NCBI RefSeq assembly: GCF_014839805.1
Contig: NC_051134.1
Coordinates: 6,417,170-6,481,169, forward strand
DNA length: 64,000 nucleotides
Source: Manduca sexta
Taxonomy: Eukaryota; Arthropoda; Insecta; Lepidoptera; Sphingidae
Reading direction: 5' to 3'
Part shown: positions 1,931-44,770 of the stretch, piece after piece
Position numbering within the stretch: the stretch's first letter is position 1
Layout: each line of letters starts with the position of its first letter
Position numbers and translations under genes: made by a program
The notes under the pieces: model-generated
What the model saw: only the letters and a program-made list of their open reading frames with translations
What the model was told of the DNA's origin: nothing
Databases searched by the model: none

Positions 1931-2595
1931 TATTATATAAAGTATAAATTAGAGTATCTGCTTCTATTTATTCTATACGTTTGGCTTTTGTTACACACGA
2001 CAGTGAATGCAAGCTCATTACTAATGTTAATTTGACATAATAAAATCTGAAAAGTAGAAAATTCAAATTGGATCACGTCACTCGTGATGCGTGGCTCCCC
2101 TCGTACTTGGGGTCTTCAAATGATCTTTCAAATTATTGGGGCGATAAATAACATTGGCCAGTATTATCGAGTATATATCTTATCATGTGTAAGAGTTGAT
2201 GTGAATGTAGACTATTTTTTAATTCTGTCGGTATTAATTAGCTCATCGTCAAAACTTAGGCAAACTTTTCTGCAATATGCTTGAAAAATGTATATCGCCG
2301 AATCCCTATGGGTTGTGATGGAGCAAGTGAAAGAAGACTTCTCCTGCTCGCGGTTGCGCTCGCGTTACAGCCTGTAGATATCCGAAATAATGTTATTTTA
2401 TATTAGCCAAATTTTGAAAGAGTTACAGTCCCTCCCATTGACTAGTCTATTTAAACATGAACTATATCTTTTTAATATTAGTGTCGGTAATTGTATTACA
2501 CATAATATGTTAGCTCCCAAGGCACTGTCTTTTAGGTTAAGGTCAATGTTTGTTAATTTTCGCAAGTAAAATGCAATAAATATAATGCACCTAAT
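1931..2595. other. Intergenic DNA, nothing recognised
   Basis: AT-rich sequence. The only longer open frame (2,084-2,284) has no recognisable protein similarity and looks like chance. Confidence 0.45.
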
Positions 2596-2880
2596 CATCA
2601 TCAGTCACAGGATGTCCACTGCTCAACATGGGCCTCCACCAAAGATTTCCAGATCTTTTTATTGGATGTTGCGGGCCGCTTCCAATATATAGATGGGTGC
2701 CTGCATTCAGCGATCTTTTGCGACTGTTAGGTGATCTGTCCACTTCATGGTTGACGTCCGACGCTACGCTTGCCAATTCGTGGCCTCTACTCTAGAACCT
2801 TCTTGCCCCATTGGCCATCAGTTCTGCGAGCTATATGTCCTGCCCAATACCACTGCATCTTGCTAATCTGATACATCTAA
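2596..2880 (-). mobile_element. Degenerate 3' end of a non-LTR retrotransposon (RTE/CR1-like)
   Basis: On the + strand the piece starts with a CATCATCAGT run, which reads as a TGATGATG tail on the minus strand. It continues with the phrase GTCCACTGCTCAACATGGGCCTCC, typical of the 3' region of lepidopteran LINEs. The minus-strand translation is broken. A related fragment is at 10,029-10,170. The exact family is uncertain. Confidence 0.5.
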
Positions 2881-3783
2881 TACAGTCGCAATATCAGTTA
2901 CAGCTGTTAAAAATTATACGCAGATAATTTAGCTTTAATAAAACTGTAGGCTACCACAGCGACGGTATTTGTTACATTAATTGAATAATAAATAGTTCTA
3001 ATTTTTATTATACTACATAAATTACACTAATAGGCCTTTTAAAATGTATTGCTAATCGGATTTCGTATGTAAATTACCTTTATGCTAGGCTATTTATGTG
3101 TTTAAGACTCGATACACGTCATTTTCACACACACTTTGCCTTCGATCGCCTCGATAATATGATGATTTGGCATACAACTGAAATGACGTTTTCTTTGATA
3201 AAATATTATTATTCGTAGAAAGCTTTGATTTTACAATAAAGTACCAATTTTTACTTAGATATACGTTTGCACGAAGCACTAAAAATAAAAACCAGTTTTG
3301 CAAAGTTTATCAACCCACTCAAATGACAGATACAGTGGTGCACTGTATTAATCTTGTTCAATAACATTCAATGAGATTTCGGCCGGTAGCGTGACATTGG
3401 CGGTCTCAGCGCTAGCTTATTAACGTTGTAAATGAATACGAAATGAATCCATTATTTCGCAAACAACCCCAGGGTTGGGGTGATCGCGTTTTAGGATACG
3501 GGCCAGCGGTATATCTGTGGAATTATATAGAGTTGTTAATGTGTTAAATTTTATTGTTAATAGATATTTCACTATAAAAAACATTTATGTTAAAAAACAT
3601 TTTAATAACAATATTACAAATATTATGGGTACTTATAAATCACTGTGCAGGTAATGCAATAATTAATCTCTATATTATTACATCGCTTGAATTCATAACT
3701 ATTGTATTATGTCACGACATAGTATTGTGCCCGTGGCGTTGTGTTCAGCATAGAAAATTCTGGCCGACGTGCGTTTTGGCCCT
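2881..3783. other. Intergenic DNA, nothing recognised
   Basis: AT-rich sequence. The open frames (3,094-3,303 minus; 3,587-3,892 plus, partly inside the next SINE) lack coding signs. Confidence 0.45.
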
Positions 3784-34700: not shown

Positions 34701-37700
34701 TTAGATAAACATCGGTTTTATCTATAGGGAGTATAAGACGATTCATATAATCAAACAAAACCTACGTGAAGAAGTCGTCTTCTCTTGCATTGCATATAGT
34801 AGTTGCGGTTGCCGGCGGTTCAAATATTTTCAAATGCCGTCAACGTTCTAAAGACGTGGATCAGTTACCACTTACTGTCAGTCGACTTCTTGGTTGTCTG
34901 TCTGATCTTCTAAAAGGAGAATTTCATTCTTTTATTCTACTAGTATGATAAAATCTAACCTGATGTTAAGTATTATTTACGTAATATAATATCCACCATC
35001 GTGAACTGCTATTCTTTAGCCTTTAGCGCCATGAATCTGATGGTAAGTATAAACTACGTAATATAATATCGACTATCGTGAACGGCTACTCCTTAGTCTC
35101 CAGTCTTACGCCATTTCTTCCAAGCTACTCCTGAAACCCACCAGGCATCTGCTCGTGTTATTTATTCATTGCTATAAAATATTATATTTTTCAGCAAAAC
35201 GGAGCCGAACCAGATCTTGTCATCTTATTCATTGAGGATAAATCTGGACTAGATGAGGAATGTAACGCACTTTACTCAGGATATAAGGCTAGTGTTAGAT
35301 AATACAAATCTGCTTGCTTAATATTTAACGTAGGAGCCATACTAGCTACACATATGACTTCAGTACAAATAACTGCATCAACTAAAATAGTAGTTTTACA
35401 TATACATCAAATATCAAAGTGATGCCACAGTTTGCAGTAAAATTTCGTATGGCGAGTGAAATTAACGGAGATAAGATCGTAAGAGGGTATAACAAAAAGA
35501 TCTGGTGTTCAGACATCTTATACTGAATCATTATAATATGCTAATTGCTAATACCTTTCTTAAGATCGACAGCGAAACTATGTTCTATGTTTTTGTTGAG
35601 ACCACGAATTATAATAGTATTTAATACAGGTATACGTGCAGCACCCCGCGGATATGCCGCAGTCATCTCTCTACTACTACGCCATGCTGCCAGAGCAGAC
35701 TTCCTCTTTTGCTCTCAAGTACAACGTGGTGGCAACATCTAAGGAGGTCAAAGATTACACTCCAGAAATGTGAGTGGTAAAGCTTTTTGGTTAGGTTTTA
35801 TACAGCCTTGTGTCAGCAGTCCTTTTTAAATCTTGGTGTTGGCACTAGACGACTTACGGCAGTAGCATGCCATGTATACAAGACCTGATCTTTTGACTTC
35901 CAAAATATCACTAGATATGCTGGTAATAGACATAAAATTTTATGTTACAAATAAAAATACATAAATTTTGTATACTGCACCGATATGATAAATAAGCAAA
36001 TACTTTGTTATAACATATTAAGCTATTCTGGTTTTCCAGGGTATATATTATTATTTTTTACTACACTCAATTAAAATGTTTATGGTACGTTGCGTTTAAC
36101 AATAGTATAATAGTTCTGCGACCTGAGCACAGTCAGACCCATAGCAAGAAAGAGTAGTTAAAAACTAGTGTCACAAGGAGATTGCTTCTAAAGAAAGTAA
36201 TACACATAATAATAATTAAAGTTGGAGGTCATAAACCCTCCACAATTTAATAAAAAAAAATAAGGTCTGTATAAAACATAGGCGGTAGTGTAGAATATGC
36301 ATAAGCAGTATTAAACGTATATGCGAAAACAACAGACAAGAGACAGGCTAAAAGAGGACTTATTGAGGCGGGCGAACTGCCTTTCCAGAAGTTTCCTTGG
36401 GATTTTAGTATTGCGGTCTTCTGAGGCGGTACTCATGTGAAGTCACTCGGGAAGCAAATGTCTCAAATAGTATATTGAATACAATTAAAATAAATATTGT
36501 TTATGCCTTTAGAATAGTTTGTATTTGGTATCACCGCCCGTTCCAGATCCACTATTTGGTACTTTAAGCCAGAGTAAATGGGGTTTCAAAAAAGGAGTTA
36601 TATTGTTGCGTATAAATAAGACAATGCTCAGTACATATTATTAATATATTGTAATAAAACCAACTAAAATTCTACAGAAGTGTATTTAAATGTTGCAGAC
36701 GGCACTGCTACTTCCCCGGGGAGCGGGATCTTCGCTATTTCAAAGTATACACGGAGAACAACTGCAGGCTCGAGTGTTTGTCTAACTACACATACAACAT
36801 GTGCGGCTGCGTGGGTTTCTATATGCCTCGTAAGTAATAATACACAAAAAGAAGTTGAAGGGTATTTTGCGGTTTCTGTTACTCTAATTGTTGTATTCAT
36901 TTTATTGTAGATAACACCAGTGATCGGATTTGCACCGTACAGAGCAAACATTGTATGGAATCAGTAATAGGTAAGTATACATTATATTTCTTATCCGATT
37001 ACTGGTTTGTTTTGTCTGAAATAATATACATGCATTGTGCAAAGGCTTAAGTCATTCATTGTCTAATTAATAAGTAATATTTTAGAAAAAATAGCGGAAA
37101 CAGAGACGGCGGGAATCAAGTCAAGATTGTGCAACTGCTTACCTGCTTGCAACACCGTGGAATACGATGCCGAGATTTTGAAGACGAAGTTTAATATCAA
37201 ACACTACTTAATGAGCAAGAAAGACAAGGACTCTGTCGCGTTTTGGAAGAAGTAATTAATTATAATTATTGTTATTTCAGTGTGTCGAATGGTACGTAAC
37301 TAAATTAAGGCAGCGACCCGAGGATGCTGTGGATTTAGATTATGGAAGTAGTTATTGACGTGTTTTATATTATAGACACGAACGTTCATATAAAATATTT
37401 GTTTAAAATCTGAAATAAAATGGCAATTAAAATGTCACTGTCATAATCTATTTATTCACTTAAATAACAAATAATTTTACTTATTTCACTAATATTTTTA
37501 TTCAGATCCAAGTTTGCACTTAGACTAGCGTTTTTTTTTATATTATGAGCGCACTCCGTACATAGCTGTAAGCATCAATATTGACGGGGTGCAACGCAGA
37601 AAACCTCCACGCGTGTCCGATTGCTGTCGGTCCCTTATGGATACGTCCGGGGGGAAGGTCAGTCGTCGGGCCGGTGCACCCTGGGCACAGTCAATAATCT

Positions 37701-40700
37701 CTCCGCGGGGGGCGGGAAAGGAGGGATTGTTGGCTGTGGCTAACTTTCTGCCGGGTGGGGCTGGGGGATAGCCCTGATGGCCTCCCATATGGCGCTCTGC
37801 GCTAGCAGAGTCCATGATGGGAGGCAGGGAGGAGTACGACCACGTGGTCGAGTGGGCGTGGTCGATGCGGTCCTTGCGGCACTACTGCCGCAGAGACCGC
37901 ACCAGTAGAGGTCGCTTGCCCCTGAAATAAGGGGTAAGCGAGGGAGTAGTAGCGGGCTCGGTGTTCACTAACCCTGTCACCGGGCTGGCGAAAGGGGAGT
38001 GGTCCCTCTTTCGCCGCCGCCAAATCTCGTAACCCCAAACATGATCAAGTGTCTCTGGCGTAAGCGTCAGACACACTTGATCTACGGGGACCGAGGGTTC
38101 ACTGGCTTAACTGCCTGGACCGCGAGGAAGAAATCCTCTATAAAAATTACCCCAAATCCCCAAGCGGCGGCGCACCGTGAGGGGTTGTAAGCTTGGCTAA
38201 TGGGTAGCTTGATTTAGTCGCTAGTGCGAACCACAGTATTTTGAGCCAGTACACAAAGTTTTTACTCGTGGGAACAAAAATGGAATCACAAATTAAAACT
38301 AAAGACGCACAGGGGGAGGAGAAAGAAGGAGCCGGGACCAATAGGTGCCGAGGAGGCCCACGTCCCGTAGGGGACAAACAGTCCGCCGAGGAATCGCGCG
38401 GGCGAACTCCCAAGGTGGGGAACGTCCGCGTGATGAAGTCGCGGCCGAAGAGCGAACGCGGGGTGCTGGGTCAGACTCTGACTCAGCATCCAGCATGGTT
38501 AGCGGATGGAGCTCAGTCGCGGGCACCAGATCTATGGAGATCAAGACGGCAGCGGCGGAGCCATTCCGGAAGCGGATCAGGTGCAGGATCGGGGATACGT
38601 CCTCCGAGGGCGGCGAGGCAAAGGCTTCGTGCGTCGCTCCCCCGGAAACGGGGCGGATCCCACTCCGCGTCTCGCGGAGCGAAGGTGAAGGGTCGGGCCC
38701 TCAAAGAAGCGAGGGACAGCGGGAAGCTCGCCGAGGAGGGCGGCACCCGATCGCCGCACGACCTCAAAAGGCCGAGAAGAAAAGGGCCAAATTTGAGGAG
38801 GTCGTGATGGCGGCGATTGCGAGTGTCCGCCAAAAGAAATTGCGGTCCTCGAAAGAGAAGGCTGCGCAAGAGGCCGCGGCCTCCATTATGGCGGCAGCAG
38901 CGGCCACCTTCTTGGAGTCGGAACCCGAGTCGGGTAACGAGGGGATGAGGGCCGATATCGCCCGGCTATCGACGGAGGTTGAGCGTCTCTCTAGGGAGAA
39001 CGCGGAACTCAAGTCCAGCCGGGCCTCAGCCCTCGTTCAGTCCTCTCGTCCTGTAGAGACGTCTCCAGAGGTGAGTGCGGTGCAGCCGGCGGACAGGCAA
39101 CAACTCCTGAGCCTGATACGAGAGGGCATCCGCCAGGAGATCGGTGCCCTCTCTGCCCGGTTCGCGGTTCTGGAGGGCATTGTCCTCCGGCCACCTCTGG
39201 CGGGCTCCAAGAAGGCTGCGTCCTACGCGGCCGCCGCGGCTCCGCAACCCACGCCGGGGACGTCCGGCCCGACGAGCCAAAACTCAGGGCCATCCACGAG
39301 GCCAACGAAGCCGTCGTCGTCGTCTCCGCCGCCTCCGCCTCCGGCCTCCCAGAGGACGCTCGCAGCAGATAAGCCCAAAAAGGCGAAGGCTGCGCGGAGA
39401 GCGGCGAAGCCGGCGGAGCTAGCAGAAGACGGCTCCCCCACCTACTCTCTTGCCTGCTGATGATGCCGGCTGGACAGTGGTGGGGGCCAAAGAGACCCGA
39501 CGCACGGAGCGGCGGAAGGCGCAGCGGCAGCGCGCCAAGGAGAGGAGCGTCGCCAATATGCTTCGCGCCCCGAAGTCCGCAGCTGTAGTCGTCACACTAC
39601 AGCCGGAAGCGGTAAAGAAGGGCGTGACATACGCGGACCCTCCTTTCCAAGGCAAAGGGGTTAATCAACCCCGCGGAGCTTTGGGATTGCTGGGGGGTTG
39701 CGGTTAAGAGTAACCGCAACCGGAGCCCGGAAACTCGAGCTCCCGGGAGCTAGTAGTGGCCCGGTCGCGGACGCCCTAGCTGCAAAGCTACGGGCGGCGT
39801 TTGATGCGGCCGAGGCTAGAGTGTCCAGACCCGTAAAGAGCGTAAGCTTGCGCATATCGGGTCTGGATGACTCCGTCACAGTGGAGGAAGTGGTGGCCGC
39901 CATTGTCGGGACCACGGGATGCTCAGCTGAAGAGCTGAAGCCGGGAGCCCTACGTCCCGACTATGCAGGTATGCTGGCCATCACGGTCAGTTGCCCCGTG
40001 ACGGCGGCCAAAGTGGTGGCTGAGGGCCGGAGGCTTTTGGTGGGCTGGGTGTCGGCGCAGGTTAAGCTGCTCGAGCCCCAGCCTCTGAGGTGTTACCGAT
40101 GTCAGACCGGACATCACGTCGGGGTAAGGTGCACCTCGGAGGTCGACCGCAGCGCGTTGTGCTTCCGCTGCGGTCAGCCCGGTCATAAAATCGGCTCGTG
40201 CACCGCCGACAAGCCGCACTGCTTAGCTTGTGCGGCGGTTGGCAAGCCAGCCGAACACCGGGCGGGGAGTAGAGCCTGCGCCGCTCCCGCCAATACCGGG
40301 GGCAAACGCCGGCCCACGGCCTCCACTGCCGCTTCCGCCGCGGCTCCCGCTAGCGCTGCCGCTGCTACTTCTGGAGAGAGCGCAATGGAATGCCATTAAT
40401 GGCCCCATTGCGCTTTCTCCAGGCGAACATCAACCACTGCGCCAGAGCTCAGGATCTCTTGCTCCAGAGCATGGCGCGGTGGTCGATTAATATCGCCGTG
40501 GTCTCCGAGCCGTACTTTGTCCCGCCCAGGAATGACTGGGTGGAGGACCTGAGCGGCTCGGTGGCCATCATCGCGTCGGCCGCCGCCGGTACCCTGACCC
40601 ACGAGCGGGTGAAGAGGGGCCAGGGTTGTGTCGCAGCTCGGTTCGGAGGGATAGTCGTAGTGGGGTGCTACTTCTCTCCGAGCCGAACTCTCGCCGAGTT

Positions 40701-43700
40701 CCACAACTCCCTCAGGGAGCTGAGTGACGTCGTCGTCGAGTACGGTTCGCTTCCCGTCGTCGTGCTGGGGGACTTCAACGCCAAGAGCCAGGCTTGGGGT
40801 TCCCGGTACACGGATGTACGGGGGCGAATGGTTGAGGACTGGGCCTTGGAGGTTGGCCTGGACGTCCTCAACAGGGGTTCCGTCGCCACGTGTATGCGGA
40901 TGCGGGGTGAGTCCGTGGTGGACATTTCGTTTGCCAGCCCCGCATTGTCGCAGCGTGTTGTCGACTGGCGAGTAATGGAGGCGGTGGAGACGCTGTCGGA
41001 CCACCGGTATATCCGGTTCGACGTCTCCACCGATCCCTCGAGCGCGCCAGTCCGACGGGCCCCAAGTGGTCCACGTTGGGCGTTGAGACAGCTGGACAGG
41101 GAGCTCCTCCTGGAAGCCTCCATCGTCCAGTCCTGGGTGCAAGCACCGGTCAGGCCGGACGATGTGAATAACGAGGCCGACTGGTTCCGGGAGGCTATGT
41201 CCTCTGTCTGCGACTCGGCAATGCCCCGAGTCCGCCGAAGCCAAGCGCGGCGCAAGGTGTACTGGTGGTCGCGGGAGCTGGCATCGCTCCAGGCGGCGTG
41301 CTATGCCGCGCGACGCCGGTACACCAGGTACCGCCAAATCCGCATCCGGCCTGTGGATGCGGTGGCTCGAGAGGCGGAGCTATACCAGGGGTACAGAGAC
41401 GCAAAGACGCTCTCTCGGGCGCGATTCTAGAGTCTAAGAATCGCGCCCACCAGGAGTTGCTGGAGTCTCTTGACGCAGACCCGTGGGGACGTCCTTACAA
41501 AATGGTGCGGAGCAAGCTCCGCATCTGGGCGCCCCCACTGACGCAGAGTCTCCGGCGGGAACTGGTCGAGGGCGTCGTTGGCGCTCTGTTCCCTGCGCGA
41601 GGGGAGCACGCTCCTCCGCCCATGGCTCCGCCCCCGGCGGCGCCCGGCATGGACCACGACGACGACGTCACTGTTCCCGCGGTGACCGGGGTAGACTTGA
41701 GGGTGGCGGTGGCCAAGATGAAGGCCAAGAACACCGCCCCAGGGCCCGACGGCTTGCCTGGAAAAGCCTGGGTCCTGGCCTTGGGGGCTCTCGGGCCTCG
41801 ACTTCAGAGGTTCCTCACGGCATGTTTGGAGAGGGGCCAGTTTCCACTTCGTTGGAAGACGGGGAAACTGGTCCTCATCGCGAAGCATGGGCGCCCCGCG
41901 GACAGTCCGTCCGCATACCGGCCCATCGTCCTGCTCGACGAGGTGGGCAAGCTCTTCGAAAGAGTTATTTCAGACCGCCTCGTCGAGCACCTGACGAGGG
42001 TTGGGCCGGATCTTGCGGACAGCCAATTTGGCTTCCGCAGAGGGCGCTCTACTGTGGATGCCATCATGCGCGTGAGGTCTCTCGCGACGGGGATGCTGTT
42101 TCCCGGGGTAGGGTCGTCTTGGCGGTGTCGCTTGACATCGCCAATGCCTTTAATACCCTGCCCTGGAGTTGTATCAGGGAGGCACTCCGGTATCACCGGG
42201 TGCCGGCCTACCTCCGTCGCGTTGTCGGGGCCTACTTGACGGATAGGGCCGTCATTTACCCCGGTCGCCAAGGGGAATGGATCAGGCGAGAGATGTCGTG
42301 CGGTGTTCCGCAGGGTTCGGTTCTGGGGCCGCTCTTGTGGAACATCGGATACGACTGGGTGCTGCGCACCGACCTCCCGAGCGGCGTCAGCGTGGTATGC
42401 TACGCTGACGACACGCTAGTTTTGGCTGACGGGGGGTCGCATCAGGCGGCGGTCGACGCGGCTACAATTGGGGTTGCGACAGTCGTTGAGAGAATCCGAC
42501 AACTGGGACTCGAGGTGGCGCTGCACAAATCCGAGGCCATGTGCTTTCATGGCCGGGGAACGCGCCACCTCCGGGTCTCCAGATCACGGCAGGAGGGGTT
42601 CACATCGGCGTCGGGTCGACGATGAAGTACCTGGGACTCGTCCTCGACAGCCGGTGGAACTTCAAGGAGCACATCCGCCTTTTGGCTCCCAGGTTGGTAA
42701 AATTCACCTGCATAATGCGGCGTCTTTTGCCAAACCTGGGGGGGCCAATGCTCCCTGCCGGCGGCTCTACGCAGGAGTCGTGCGGTCCATGGCCCTGTAC
42801 GGTGCCCCCGTATGGTCCGCAGCTGTGGCGCGGCGGCAAGGCCGCTTTCTGAACGCGCCACAAAGAGCGATGGCCATACGGCTGATACGGGGATACCGCA
42901 CGATCTCCTGCGAGGCGGCGGGCCTCCTTGCCGGACTACCGCCATGGGGTCTCGAGGCGAAGGTCCTTGCGTCACTATATGTGTGGCGCGGGGAGGCGCA
43001 TAGCCGGGGCGTAGCTCCGCTACCGCGACAAATTGCCGCGCGGCGGACGGAGCTCCGGCAGAACCTCATGGCGGAATGGCGACAACGACTGTCGCAACCC
43101 TTGGCTGGGCACGCCACGATAGCGGCGGTAAGTCCCTCTTCGAGGTGTGGCTGACGAGACGTCACGGCGTCCTCTCATTCCGGACGACGCAGGTACTGAC
43201 CGGTCACGGCTGCTTCGGCAGGTACCTGTATCGGATCCGGGTGGAGGATACGCCCGCGTGTTTTTACTGTGCGGATCGGCCGGAGGACACGGTGGAGCAT
43301 ACGGTGGAGGTGTGCCCAGCTTGGGCTGAGCCCCGCCGTGTTCTCTCAACGGCCATCGGTGGCGGAGACCTCTCGCGTCGGGGCCTGGTAGAAGCCATGC
43401 TCCGGGGCGAGAGAGAGTGGGACGCAGTCACCTCCTTCTGCGAGGACGTGATGCTCGCAAAGGAGGTGGCGGAGCGGATACGGCGCCAAAGCGCCCAACG
43501 TCCCATCCGCCACGGCAGACGCACAAGACGCGGGCGTCAAACGTCTGCTGAGGATCGTCGGCCTCCGTAGGCGCGGACCGTCGGGTGACGAGCATTGGGT
43601 AGCCCGTCGCCCGAAACACCCCAACGGCCCGTGTGTTCGGCGCGTAGTGTTCCACGCGCGCCTCGAAGAGCAGTGTCAGAGTAATTTGCGGGGCCCTTTA

Positions 43701-43855: not shown

Positions 43856-43886
<31 letters not shown>

Positions 43887-44770
43887 ATCAATATTGACAC
43901 CGTACTAAAATCAGTTTGAATGGTTAACAGTTCAATTCAGTTGAACACAGTGAATGATCGGAACGCCAATTTTAGTACGTAGTACATATATTTCGATGGA
44001 AGTGGTGATCATAGCATTATAAGGTACGTGCGTGCTTGCTTGCGTGCCTGCATGTGCGTGAGTGTATATATATATTTATGAAAGAGGATCTATAGCACAA
44101 CCTTAGATTCGTTAATATTTGATTTGGTCGTCAACATGAATGCGTGGCTGAGCATACCCCAATGAGGTTATGTTAAGCAGATATCCAAGTTTATTGTGCT
44201 GGTGTATTGTTTAGGCCATTTCTTATCGTTTAAGCTATATATAGGCAACGTCGGTAGTTTTATACACCTACGCATAATAAAAGAATTGTATACTTTACTC
44301 TACAGCTACACGTTTTCAAGGCTGGAGATGTATTTCAAGAGCCCTCGCTTCGTGTCCATGCGCCGCTCGGAGCTGTTCGGTCTGACCGACTTCATCGCCA
44401 ATTGCGGAGGGCTGCTGGGCTTGTTCTTGGGGTTCTCCTTCCTCAGCCTCGTCGAGATCATCTACTTCCTGACCCTCAGGTATTGTATAGTATTGTAACA
44501 AACTTAGGTTTATCCGACTCAACCGACCAATCCCTTGAAAGGTTGGTGCCACTTTCTTGAGAACTATAAAGAATGATATTCTAATTTCTTATTTCATTGA
44601 TTCATATGAATTATTATTTATATGTTTAGCCATTCTTTTTAGAAAGACATTTTAACTCCATTATTTGCCTTTAAATACTTATCGTGCCTTATTTTTTCAG
44701 ACTTTGGTGCGCATTTAAGCGCGATATGAACAACGAAAAACAAATAAAAATAGAATATAAGAGAAATTAA
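28721..44770 (+). CDS. Pickpocket (DEG/ENaC) sodium channel subunit, copy A, 14 coding exons, 553 aa
   Basis: Amiloride-sensitive-type cation channel subunit with two membrane spans, acting at the plasma membrane, usually of sensory or epithelial cells. Exons: 28721-28725, 31382-31546, 31768-31897, 32087-32187, 32864-32996, 33692-33852, 34338-34449, 35195-35287, 35630-35769, 36678-36829, 36911-36970, 37086-37251, 44306-44479, 44701-44770. All phases close (1,662 nt) with no frameshift. The HG gating motif is at residues 42-43 (TTLHGLRY), TM1 at about 58-75 and VPFPSVTIC at 101-109. Next come TQEGICFNFN, a cysteine-rich extracellular domain, and TM2 at about 503-528 with GFS filter residues 515-517 inside LGFSFLSLVEIIYF. 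The tail is 23 aa. Exon 8 has a GC donor, the exon 10 acceptor is shifted relative to copy B, and intron 12 carries a 6.3-kb retrotransposon. The family is certain; the exact orthologue (ppk28-like is possible) is not. Confidence 0.92.
29799..30028. mobile_element. Fold-back MITE-like element in intron 1 of copy A
   Basis: Two near-perfect inverted arms of about 65 bp (29,799-29,865 and 29,963-30,028) include TATCGCGGTTTTAATATT and CTCCCGACGTTTCG with their reverse complements. They enclose a spacer of about 97 bp. A related half element lies in intron 2 of copy C (about 60,110-60,240). It is probably a non-autonomous DNA transposon. No coding sequence is present. Confidence 0.75.
31163..31374 (+). 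repeat. Dispersed repeat X directly before exon 2 of copy A
   Basis: GTTAACTGACGAGAGACAATTG, CAGTCGGCACAATGATACC, CTATCCGGGTGGATAT and CACCAGCAATTTT match repeat X. It ends only about 7 bp before the exon 2 start and therefore supplies or abuts the acceptor region. Remnants occupy the same place in copy B (49,365-49,500) and are not seen in copy C. Confidence 0.65.
37572..37585. repeat. Target-site duplication, left
   Basis: GCATCAATATTGAC is identical to 43,885-43,898. It abuts the first base of the retrotransposon. Confidence 0.95.
37586..37751 (+). ncRNA. Predicted HDV-like self-cleaving ribozyme at the retrotransposon 5' end
   Basis: All helices of the nested double pseudoknot can be paired by hand. 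P1 is 37586-37592 with 37676-37682 (7 bp, with a G-T wobble at the cleavage-site pair). P2 is 37596-37602 with 37745-37751 (7 bp). P3 is 37603-37605 with 37673-37675 (3 bp). P4 is 37688-37704 with 37720-37736 (17 bp including wobbles). J1/4 is GGGCA (37683-37687). J4/2 is TGGCTAAC (37737-37744), with the expected catalytic C at 37740. L3 starts TCC but is expanded to 67 nt, which is unusual. Cleavage 5' of G37586 would free the RNA exactly at the element/target boundary, as known for R2 and some other non-LTR elements. Activity is inferred, not shown. Confidence 0.8.
37867..38082 (+). promoter_or_regulatory. Three strong hairpins in the retrotransposon 5'UTR
   Basis: Hairpin 1 (37,867-37,900) has stems GCGGTC/GACCGC and TGCGGCA/TGCCGCA around loop CTAC. 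Hairpin 2 (37,912-37,941) pairs TCGCTT/AAGCGA and CCCCT/AGGGG around a 6-nt loop. Hairpin 3 (38,043-38,082) pairs GATCAAGTGT/ACACTTGATC with further inner pairing around loop TAAG. They lie between the ribozyme and ORF1 and could serve translation, RNP assembly or RNA stability. The role is inferred. Confidence 0.6.
38280..40399 (+). pseudogene. Retrotransposon ORF1 (gag-like, zinc knuckles), frameshifted
   Basis: Nucleic-acid-binding ORF1 protein that packages element RNA. The start is ATG 38,280 (MESQIKTKD). The reading continues in another frame after a shift between about 38,345 and 38,450, shifts at the C5 run near 39,436, and shifts back near the G6 run at 39,690. The N-terminal half is charged and low-complexity. 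A coiled-coil-like stretch (RLSTEVERLSRENAEL) is at about 38,970. The C-terminal half has an RRM-like region, then three zinc knuckles starting at about 40,091, 40,160 and 40,217 (CYRCQTGHH, CFRCGQPGH, HCLACAAVG). It stops with TAA 40,397-40,399, overlapping the ORF2 ATG. No in-frame nonsense change was seen inside the segments. Confidence 0.85.
40399..43570 (+). pseudogene. Retrotransposon ORF2 (AP endonuclease - reverse transcriptase), frameshifted
   Basis: This enzyme nicks the target and copies element RNA by target-primed reverse transcription. The likely start is ATG 40,399 inside TAATG; ATG 40,390 is in the same frame. Span about 1,057 codons, normal for R1-clade ORF2. The endonuclease region has LQANINH, SEPYFV, GDFNAK (about 40,768), SVVDISF and SDHRYI. 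The RT region has AYRPIVLLDEVGKLFE, motif A SLDIANAFN, motif B GVPQGSVLGP and catalytic YADD at 42,401-42,412. The C-terminal finger is CFYCADRPEDTVEH (43,259 onwards). Frame changes lie near 41,400, 42,095, 42,560, 42,742 (G7 run) and 43,125. Catalytic residues are intact on both sides of the breaks. Confidence 0.9.
43712..43750 (+). promoter_or_regulatory. 3'UTR hairpin of the retrotransposon
   Basis: TGCCTAGGTC (43,712-43,721) and GACCTAGGCA (43,741-43,750) form a perfect 10-bp stem with a 19-nt loop, about 107 nt before the poly(A). 3'UTR structures are recognised by the reverse transcriptase in several R-type elements, so a similar role is possible here. Confidence 0.5.
43857..43884 (+). 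repeat. Retrotransposon poly(A) tail, 28 nt
   Basis: An uninterrupted A run follows CCTACGT and directly precedes the right target-site duplication. It may include one or two A residues from the target. Confidence 0.9.
43885..43898. repeat. Target-site duplication, right
   Basis: GCATCAATATTGAC directly after the poly(A) is identical to 37,572-37,585. Confidence 0.95.

Follow-up and report, generated by a model that had tools for sequence, protein, structure and literature searches.

An HDV-like ribozyme fold with a 60-nt inserted hairpin at the 5' end of an R1-type retrotransposon in Manduca sexta

Introduction

A stretch of 64,000 nucleotides (nt) of the Manduca sexta genome (contig NC_051134.1, positions 6,417,170 to 6,481,169, forward strand; here called the window, in whose coordinates positions are given) holds a retrotransposon that extends from G37586 to a poly(A) tail at 43857-43884, and whose first 166 nt can be paired in the manner of the hepatitis delta virus (HDV) ribozyme. 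The locus raises the question of whether the retrotransposon frees its own 5' end by self-cleavage and, if so, how the ribozyme would accommodate the 67 nt that separate the two strands of its helix P3. The comparisons reported here make it very probable that these 166 nt, as RNA, fold as an HDV-like self-cleaving ribozyme that frees the 5' end of the retrotransposon; the narrower proposal, for which we consider the chances evenly balanced on the sequences compared, is of a natural, active HDV-like ribozyme with a 60-nt hairpin domain at the L3/P3' boundary, the most constrained part of the fold.

Results

The fold at the 5' end of the element

Helix and junction positions were computed by script, and all parts of an HDV-like ribozyme are present within the 166 nt of 37586-37751, with P1, P2, P3, P1.1 and P4 in the order required for the nested double pseudoknot:

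37586-37592, + strand: P1 5' strand, GGGGUGC; G37586 is the element's first base and the predicted first base after cleavage (all 19 genomic copies found start here)
37593-37595, + strand: J1/2, AAC
37596-37602, + strand: P2 5' strand, GCAGAAA; differs on both sides from relatives at two of six counted pairs
37603-37605, + strand: P3 5' strand, ACC
37606-37612, + strand: L3 core UCCACGC; CC for P1.1, with U and G matching the HDV reverse-wobble pair (script; relatives)
37613-37672, + strand: 60-nt insertion between the L3 core and P3' (hairpin 37615-37671), absent from all eight ribozyme-bearing relatives
37673-37675, + strand: P3 3' strand, GGU
37676-37682, + strand: P1 3' strand, GCACCCU
37683-37687, + strand: J1/4, GGGCA; the first two G can pair with the CC of L3 (P1.1)
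37688-37736, + strand: P4 hairpin, 17 base pairs (bp), 37688-37704 with 37720-37736 (fold z -5.7)
37737-37744, + strand: J4/2, UGGCUAAC, with candidate catalytic C37740 (script; RF00094 alignment)
37745-37751, + strand: P2 3' strand, UUUCUGC, closing the pseudoknot

P1 and P2 comprise 7 bp each, the former with a terminal G-U, and P3 comprises 3 bp with 67 nt between P3 and P3'. The C of J4/2, which we take to be the catalytic residue, is followed by N-A-A, as GGCUAA in the window and GGC[UGC]AA in all eight ribozyme-bearing relatives described below. L3 begins with UCCACGC, and so holds both the CC available for P1.1 and the U and G whose pairing is named as a signature of HDV-like ribozymes (PMC3386971). 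The usual short L3 running straight into P3', which no source consulted calls defining, is replaced in the window by a 7-nt core and 60 extra nt. An earlier note, made from the letters of the window alone, had placed all helices, junctions and the candidate catalytic C where the script's helix table now finds them, and had G1 directly adjoining a target-site duplication, the 5' copy of which indeed ends at 37585.

Two descriptors, both written after the candidate was already known, were used to gauge chance occurrence. The strict form asked for 7 bp in P1, at least 5 bp each in P2 and P4, and 3 bp in P3, together with YCC opening L3, GG in J1/4 and GGCTAA in J4/2. It gave a single match when both strands of the window were scanned, and 1500 dinucleotide shuffles of the element (9.4 Mb, one strand) contained no match. 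The looser form, with GGCNAA in place of GGCTAA, matched only at 37586 in the window and nowhere in 6000 shuffles of the element (one strand, 37.8 Mb); across 55 sequences it matched the window, L001-L008 (same family), L060, L064, L065 and L070, and nothing else (L, C and P numbers denote loci, contigs and proteins).

Copies of the family share a precise 5' end

A search of the Manduca genome with the 166 nt gave 19 matches including the window copy, every one of which begins at base 1 (G1), so that the precise 5' end is family-wide. An exact duplication of 12-18 nt ends at the base before G1 in ten of these copies; near-exact duplications occur in L013 and L026 (one mismatch), L020 (two mismatches) and L017 (different length of a C-run), and no clear duplication was seen in L009, L012, L014, L019 or L027. 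Flanks differ among the copies, except that L009 and L012 share theirs and that L010, L013 and L024 each sit within a copy of one repeat family, at similar sites. In 14 of the 19 copies T precedes G1, which together with the three similar insertion sites suggests a loose target preference.

The full 166 nt are identical in ten copies, the other nine carrying changes, and P1, J1/4 and the first six bases of L3 are invariant throughout; the seventh L3 base differs in L027 (C27T). With T at element base 155, L020 constitutes a natural control that is expected to be dead. For the 3' end of the element, 239 candidate places were found in the genome, and all 40 that were scored matched, so that most copies are probably 5'-truncated.

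Related families carry the ribozyme with paired changes

The comparative evidence from related families is, at the level of sequence, decisive for the ribozyme reading. At least 137 matches to the endonuclease of the element occur in the genome (117 of 1159 candidates scored), and the upstream stretches were read for 14 of them, 39% to over 80% identical to the window. Model R1, built from the window family alone and with E-values that are rough, finds a ribozyme in eight of these stretches (L060, L062, L064, L065, L066, L068, L069 and L070) at 26.9-34.3 bits (E 1.2e-5 to 3.3e-7), its best score against a sequence presumed not to be a ribozyme being 12.6 bits (E 0.28). The endonucleases of the eight are 50-63% identical to that of the window. 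Near endonuclease matches that are closer to the window family, the upstream stretches on C1081 and C3006 gave no match to model R1. Rfam scans, which covered the upstream stretches other than L072 and L073, gave RF00094 matches to these eight loci with scores of 35.0-43.2 bits (lowest E 0.00044) and RF02682 matches to seven of them at 21.9-34.9 bits, in both cases below gathering. In L064 (contig C44) and L065 (contig C368) the ribozyme starts directly after TTAGG telomeric repeats, in the manner of SART elements (repeats and SART-like element within 2450-3001 in each locus), and the other six showed no TTAGG repeats in 45 nt of 5' flank. Six of the eight contain CCTCCTCGTGG, named as the most conserved sequence in R2 of Drosophila and zebra finch (PMC5035012).

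For the covariation count, L064/65 and L066/68/69 were each taken as one. Pairs of P2 differ on both sides at two of the six counted positions, with pairing mostly kept: pair 1 is G-C in the window and U-A in the relatives (broken U-U in L062), and pair 5 is A-U in the window and G-C in the relatives. As P2 is the pseudoknot helix, these changes bear directly on the HDV topology. The sequence of P4 can hardly be aligned except by starting from the base of the helix; aligned in this way, four of its seven pairs (2, 5, 6 and 7) have changed on both sides, again with pairing mostly kept, although pair 2 in L064/65 is G-U and so a one-side change only. P1 shows one-side changes only, at pairs 1 and 4. 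The earlier claim that an HDV-like fold stands precisely at the 5' end of an R1-type element is supported by these comparisons together with the positions of the helices.

A 60-nt insertion between the L3 core and P3'

In all eight relatives L3 consists of 7 nt (TCCTCGT or TCCACGC), with the GGT of P3' immediately after it; in the window TCCACGC, identical to the entire L3 of L062 and L070, is followed by exactly 60 nt and then GGT, and alignment with four of the eight leaves a gap of 60 columns against the window. The earlier description of L3 as enlarged to 67 nt is right as to the span, but simple enlargement is set aside in favour of a 7-nt core and an exact 60-nt insertion before P3'. The inserted sequence folds as a single hairpin (-28.6 kcal/mol, z -3.2; one of 200 shuffles as good), and no second match indicating its origin was found in the window or in the 19 loci of relatives searched.

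The base that follows the L3 G of the antigenomic HDV ribozyme is bulged and shows poor conservation (PMC3386971). Because the insertion adjoins the corresponding position, it could, by analogy, leave the U21-G26 pair and P1.1 intact; the counterpart of this bulged base is also the only L3-core base that differs in any copy (C27T, L027). The inserted hairpin is the new part of the observation. Among the papers listed in a literature search, none was seen to describe an insertion at L3/P3', which does not show that none is in print.

Evidence against the fold, and alternative explanations

Several observations weigh against the ribozyme reading. The best pseudoknot-free fold (-78.6 kcal/mol) pairs the bases of P2 and P3 differently, and compares with -65.6 kcal/mol for the nested part of the HDV fold plus -7.3 for P2. 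An Rfam scan of the window at the gathering score gave no match, an outcome that the earlier note had itself named as telling against its proposal. Under permissive settings RF00094 aligned over its full length to 37584-37752, with a long stretch skipped within L3, at 15.3 bits (E 9.2), which falls short of the gathering cut-off of 50 for family membership; as five unrelated families in the same list have lower E-values (0.59-7.6), this match is not evidence on its own. The relatives, which are free of the insertion, score far above the window with RF00094, yet they too stay below 50. Four of the eight ribozyme-bearing relatives fail the descriptor, and model R1 finds no ribozyme in the remaining six of the 14 upstream stretches (L061, L063, L067, L071, L072 and L073). 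Within the family, six of 19 copies carry changes that would damage the core, in P2 (L019, L023), P3 (L027), P4 (L025, L026) and, in L020, at the candidate catalytic C itself (C155T); we read these as decay after insertion. Broken pairs also occur among the relatives, in L062 (P2 pair 1, U-U; P4 pair 4, C-A) and in L066/68/69 (P4 pair 3, G-A), and each both-side change may represent one event, since nearly all of them separate the window from all relatives. Finally, the covariation that the earlier note had proposed to look for in related 5' ends is absent within the family, where no pair is changed on both sides (11 of 19 copies, 10 distinct), and emerges against other families of the same genome; the window family is too young, and without both-side changes of its own it could not by itself prove the fold.

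The alternative that survives best, albeit an improbable one, is that the fold is ancestral and has been crippled by the 60-nt insertion, the 5' end being set instead by transcription starting at G1 from an internal promoter, as in other long interspersed nuclear elements (LINEs). A precise start site would likewise yield identical 5' ends, and the constant 7-nt L3 of the relatives means that an insertion there could be harmful. Ten copies are nevertheless identical over all 166 nt, and with P1, J1/4 and the first six L3 bases unchanged in all 19 the lineage evidently continued to spread while carrying the insertion next to an intact core. Considerably less likely is the proposal that the structure serves mainly as part of a leader for cap-independent translation of ORF1, cleavage being secondary: the stretch behind the ribozyme is indeed strongly structured (z -8.2), and a part in translation initiation is ascribed to the HDV-like ribozymes of certain R2 families (PMC5035012), but this does not account for a fold that, in all 19 copies found, ends exactly where the element begins. 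Chance pairing, for which the GC-richness of the leader and the lack of an Rfam match at gathering might be cited, is scarcely credible given no descriptor match in 37.8 Mb of shuffled sequence, and is already contradicted by the conserved core and paired changes of relatives whose endonucleases have diverged to 50-63% identity.

Proposed mechanism

On the ribozyme reading, the element would be transcribed as part of an upstream host transcript, here possibly the pre-mRNA of a sodium channel gene (see below). The 166-nt RNA would then fold with canonical P1, P2, P3, P1.1 and P4, the L3 heptaloop UCCACGC and the C in J4/2, while the 60-nt hairpin between L3 and P3' may point away from the core. 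From this arrangement we infer a cut immediately 5' of G37586, which would free the exact 5' end of the retrotransposon RNA and would imply that the insertion is tolerated. Since ribozymes of the HDV type depend little on the sequence upstream of the cut, self-cleavage would suit an element with many different targets.

The element and its host gene

The remaining features of the element are as follows:

37570-37585, + strand: target-site duplication, 5' copy (14-16 nt), AAGCATCAATATTGAC (sequence repeat)
37752-38345, + strand: strongly structured stretch after the ribozyme, probably the 5' leader (minimum free energy -266.2 kcal/mol, z -8.2)
38241-40399, + strand: ORF1 region, frames broken in the window copy (two frames scanned, neither with a Pfam match)
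40390-41430, + strand: start of ORF2, APE-type endonuclease (Pfam PF14529, 4.9e-21; PDB TRAS1 1wdu, 7e-13)
41265-42625, + strand: reverse transcriptase (RT) over two frames (Pfam RVT_1 in both, one slightly below the Pfam cut-off)
43857-43884, + strand: poly(A) tail
43883-43898, + strand: target-site duplication, 3' copy, AAGCATCAATATTGAC (sequence repeat)

The length of the duplication is given as 14-16 nt because its first two A's are indistinguishable from the poly(A) tail. The stretch 37752-38345 consists of a series of strong hairpins of possible relevance to translation or packaging. A perfect 18-nt inverted repeat lies in the RT region (42471-42488 and 43083-43100, 594 nt apart), both arms of which are found in 17 of the 19 copies, the exceptions being L014 and L027.

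Exons of an amiloride-sensitive sodium channel gene flank the element, which has the same orientation as the gene, as indicated by Pfam ASC matches, all on the + strand, upstream (36658-36834 and 37067-37252, the latter slightly below the Pfam cut-off) and downstream (44328-44486). This sense insertion makes co-transcription from the channel gene possible, as the earlier note had suggested.

Clade placement

An APE-type endonuclease and an RT related to those of R1, TRAS and SART assign the element to the R1 clade. TRAS1 is the sole PDB relative of the endonuclease at E 0.001, and a protein named Bombyx R1 matches the RT of copy L023 with 54% identity across 67% of the query. An endonuclease tree with 24 rows, built from sequences other than labelled R1, TRAS or SART references, places the window family and proteins of Manduca, Parnassius, Danaus and Helicoverpa (P0001, P0002, P0007, P0008) together on a branch of their own (100/100); the Manduca protein P0001 may be a gene model of the window family, since its contig also holds copy L015. 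L074, from C44, a telomeric contig, clusters with the other Manduca families (99/99), and the ribozyme thus occurs in two R1-type lineages of one genome. The Manduca families surrounding L074 include dispersed ones (at least L057/L060 and L050/L062), a pattern suggesting that a ribozyme-bearing lineage has gained or lost telomere targeting. Identification of the window element as SART was rejected, as none of the 19 copies has TTAGG repeats in the 20-40 nt of 5' flank read and the element does not group with the telomeric one. Scans of viral contigs and genome contigs for relatives returned only two remote RTs (21-25% identity).

Discussion

At this locus an HDV-like core carries a large structured insertion in a loop that measures 7 nt in all eight ribozyme-bearing relatives. 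Because standard models give a lower score to a sequence with such an insertion, others of this kind could go unannotated. If the fold is active as it stands, the hairpin may be a peripheral or regulatory domain and L3 an insertion-tolerant site; the same genome holds insertion-free relatives, both telomere-adjoining and dispersed, and the effect of the insertion on cleavage is thereby open to comparison between natural sequences. The distribution of the ribozyme suggests that 5' processing of this type is common to two or more R1-type lineages with different choices of target.

An HDV-like ribozyme at an R1-type 5' end is not in itself new. R6 belongs to the R1 clade, and Ruminski et al. (2011, J Biol Chem) is reportedly the founding paper on the SART and R6 ribozymes. 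A 2024 paper lists HDV-like ribozymes for SART and R6 (PMC11620745), and SART, like TRAS, is an R1 family (PMC10088271), so that the earlier note's statement that it did not know such ribozymes to be standard for the clade is corrected by published work. A literature search on R1-clade ribozymes in Lepidoptera returned no paper, and among the papers listed on Manduca ribozymes, telomeres and SART nothing fitting was seen, which again does not show that none is in print.

The closest comparison is with L064 and L065, taken for SART by their telomeric target, whose ribozymes stand at the same place and have the same P1, P3 and J1/4 sequences as the window and a similar L3. They differ in having a 7-nt L3 where the window family has the 60-nt insertion, and in P2 and P4; SART is moreover telomeric, whereas the window family has dispersed non-telomeric targets and a separate endonuclease branch. 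Ribozymes of R2 (R2/R4 superclade) free the 5' end of the element from a co-transcript, as proposed here, and have the CCUCC-CG core (PMC5035012) in common with the window; R2 targets 28S rDNA, however, and for most species its cleavage site lies in the rRNA, upstream of the element (PMC3774820), whereas the cut in the window is predicted exactly at the start of the element, as is also the case for Drosophila R2, R4, Dong, Baggins and L1Tc (PMC3774820). The genomic and antigenomic HDV ribozymes (RF00094) show the same double-pseudoknot topology, L3 U/CC/G signature and GGCUAA J4/2, but have a short L3 without insertion, and the window lies far below the Rfam cut-off for them. The mosquito Agam-2 ribozymes with a P1.2 domain likewise carry a peripheral hairpin on an HDV-like core (PMC4908430), the extra domain being situated in J1/2 in Agam-2 and between L3 and P3' in the window.

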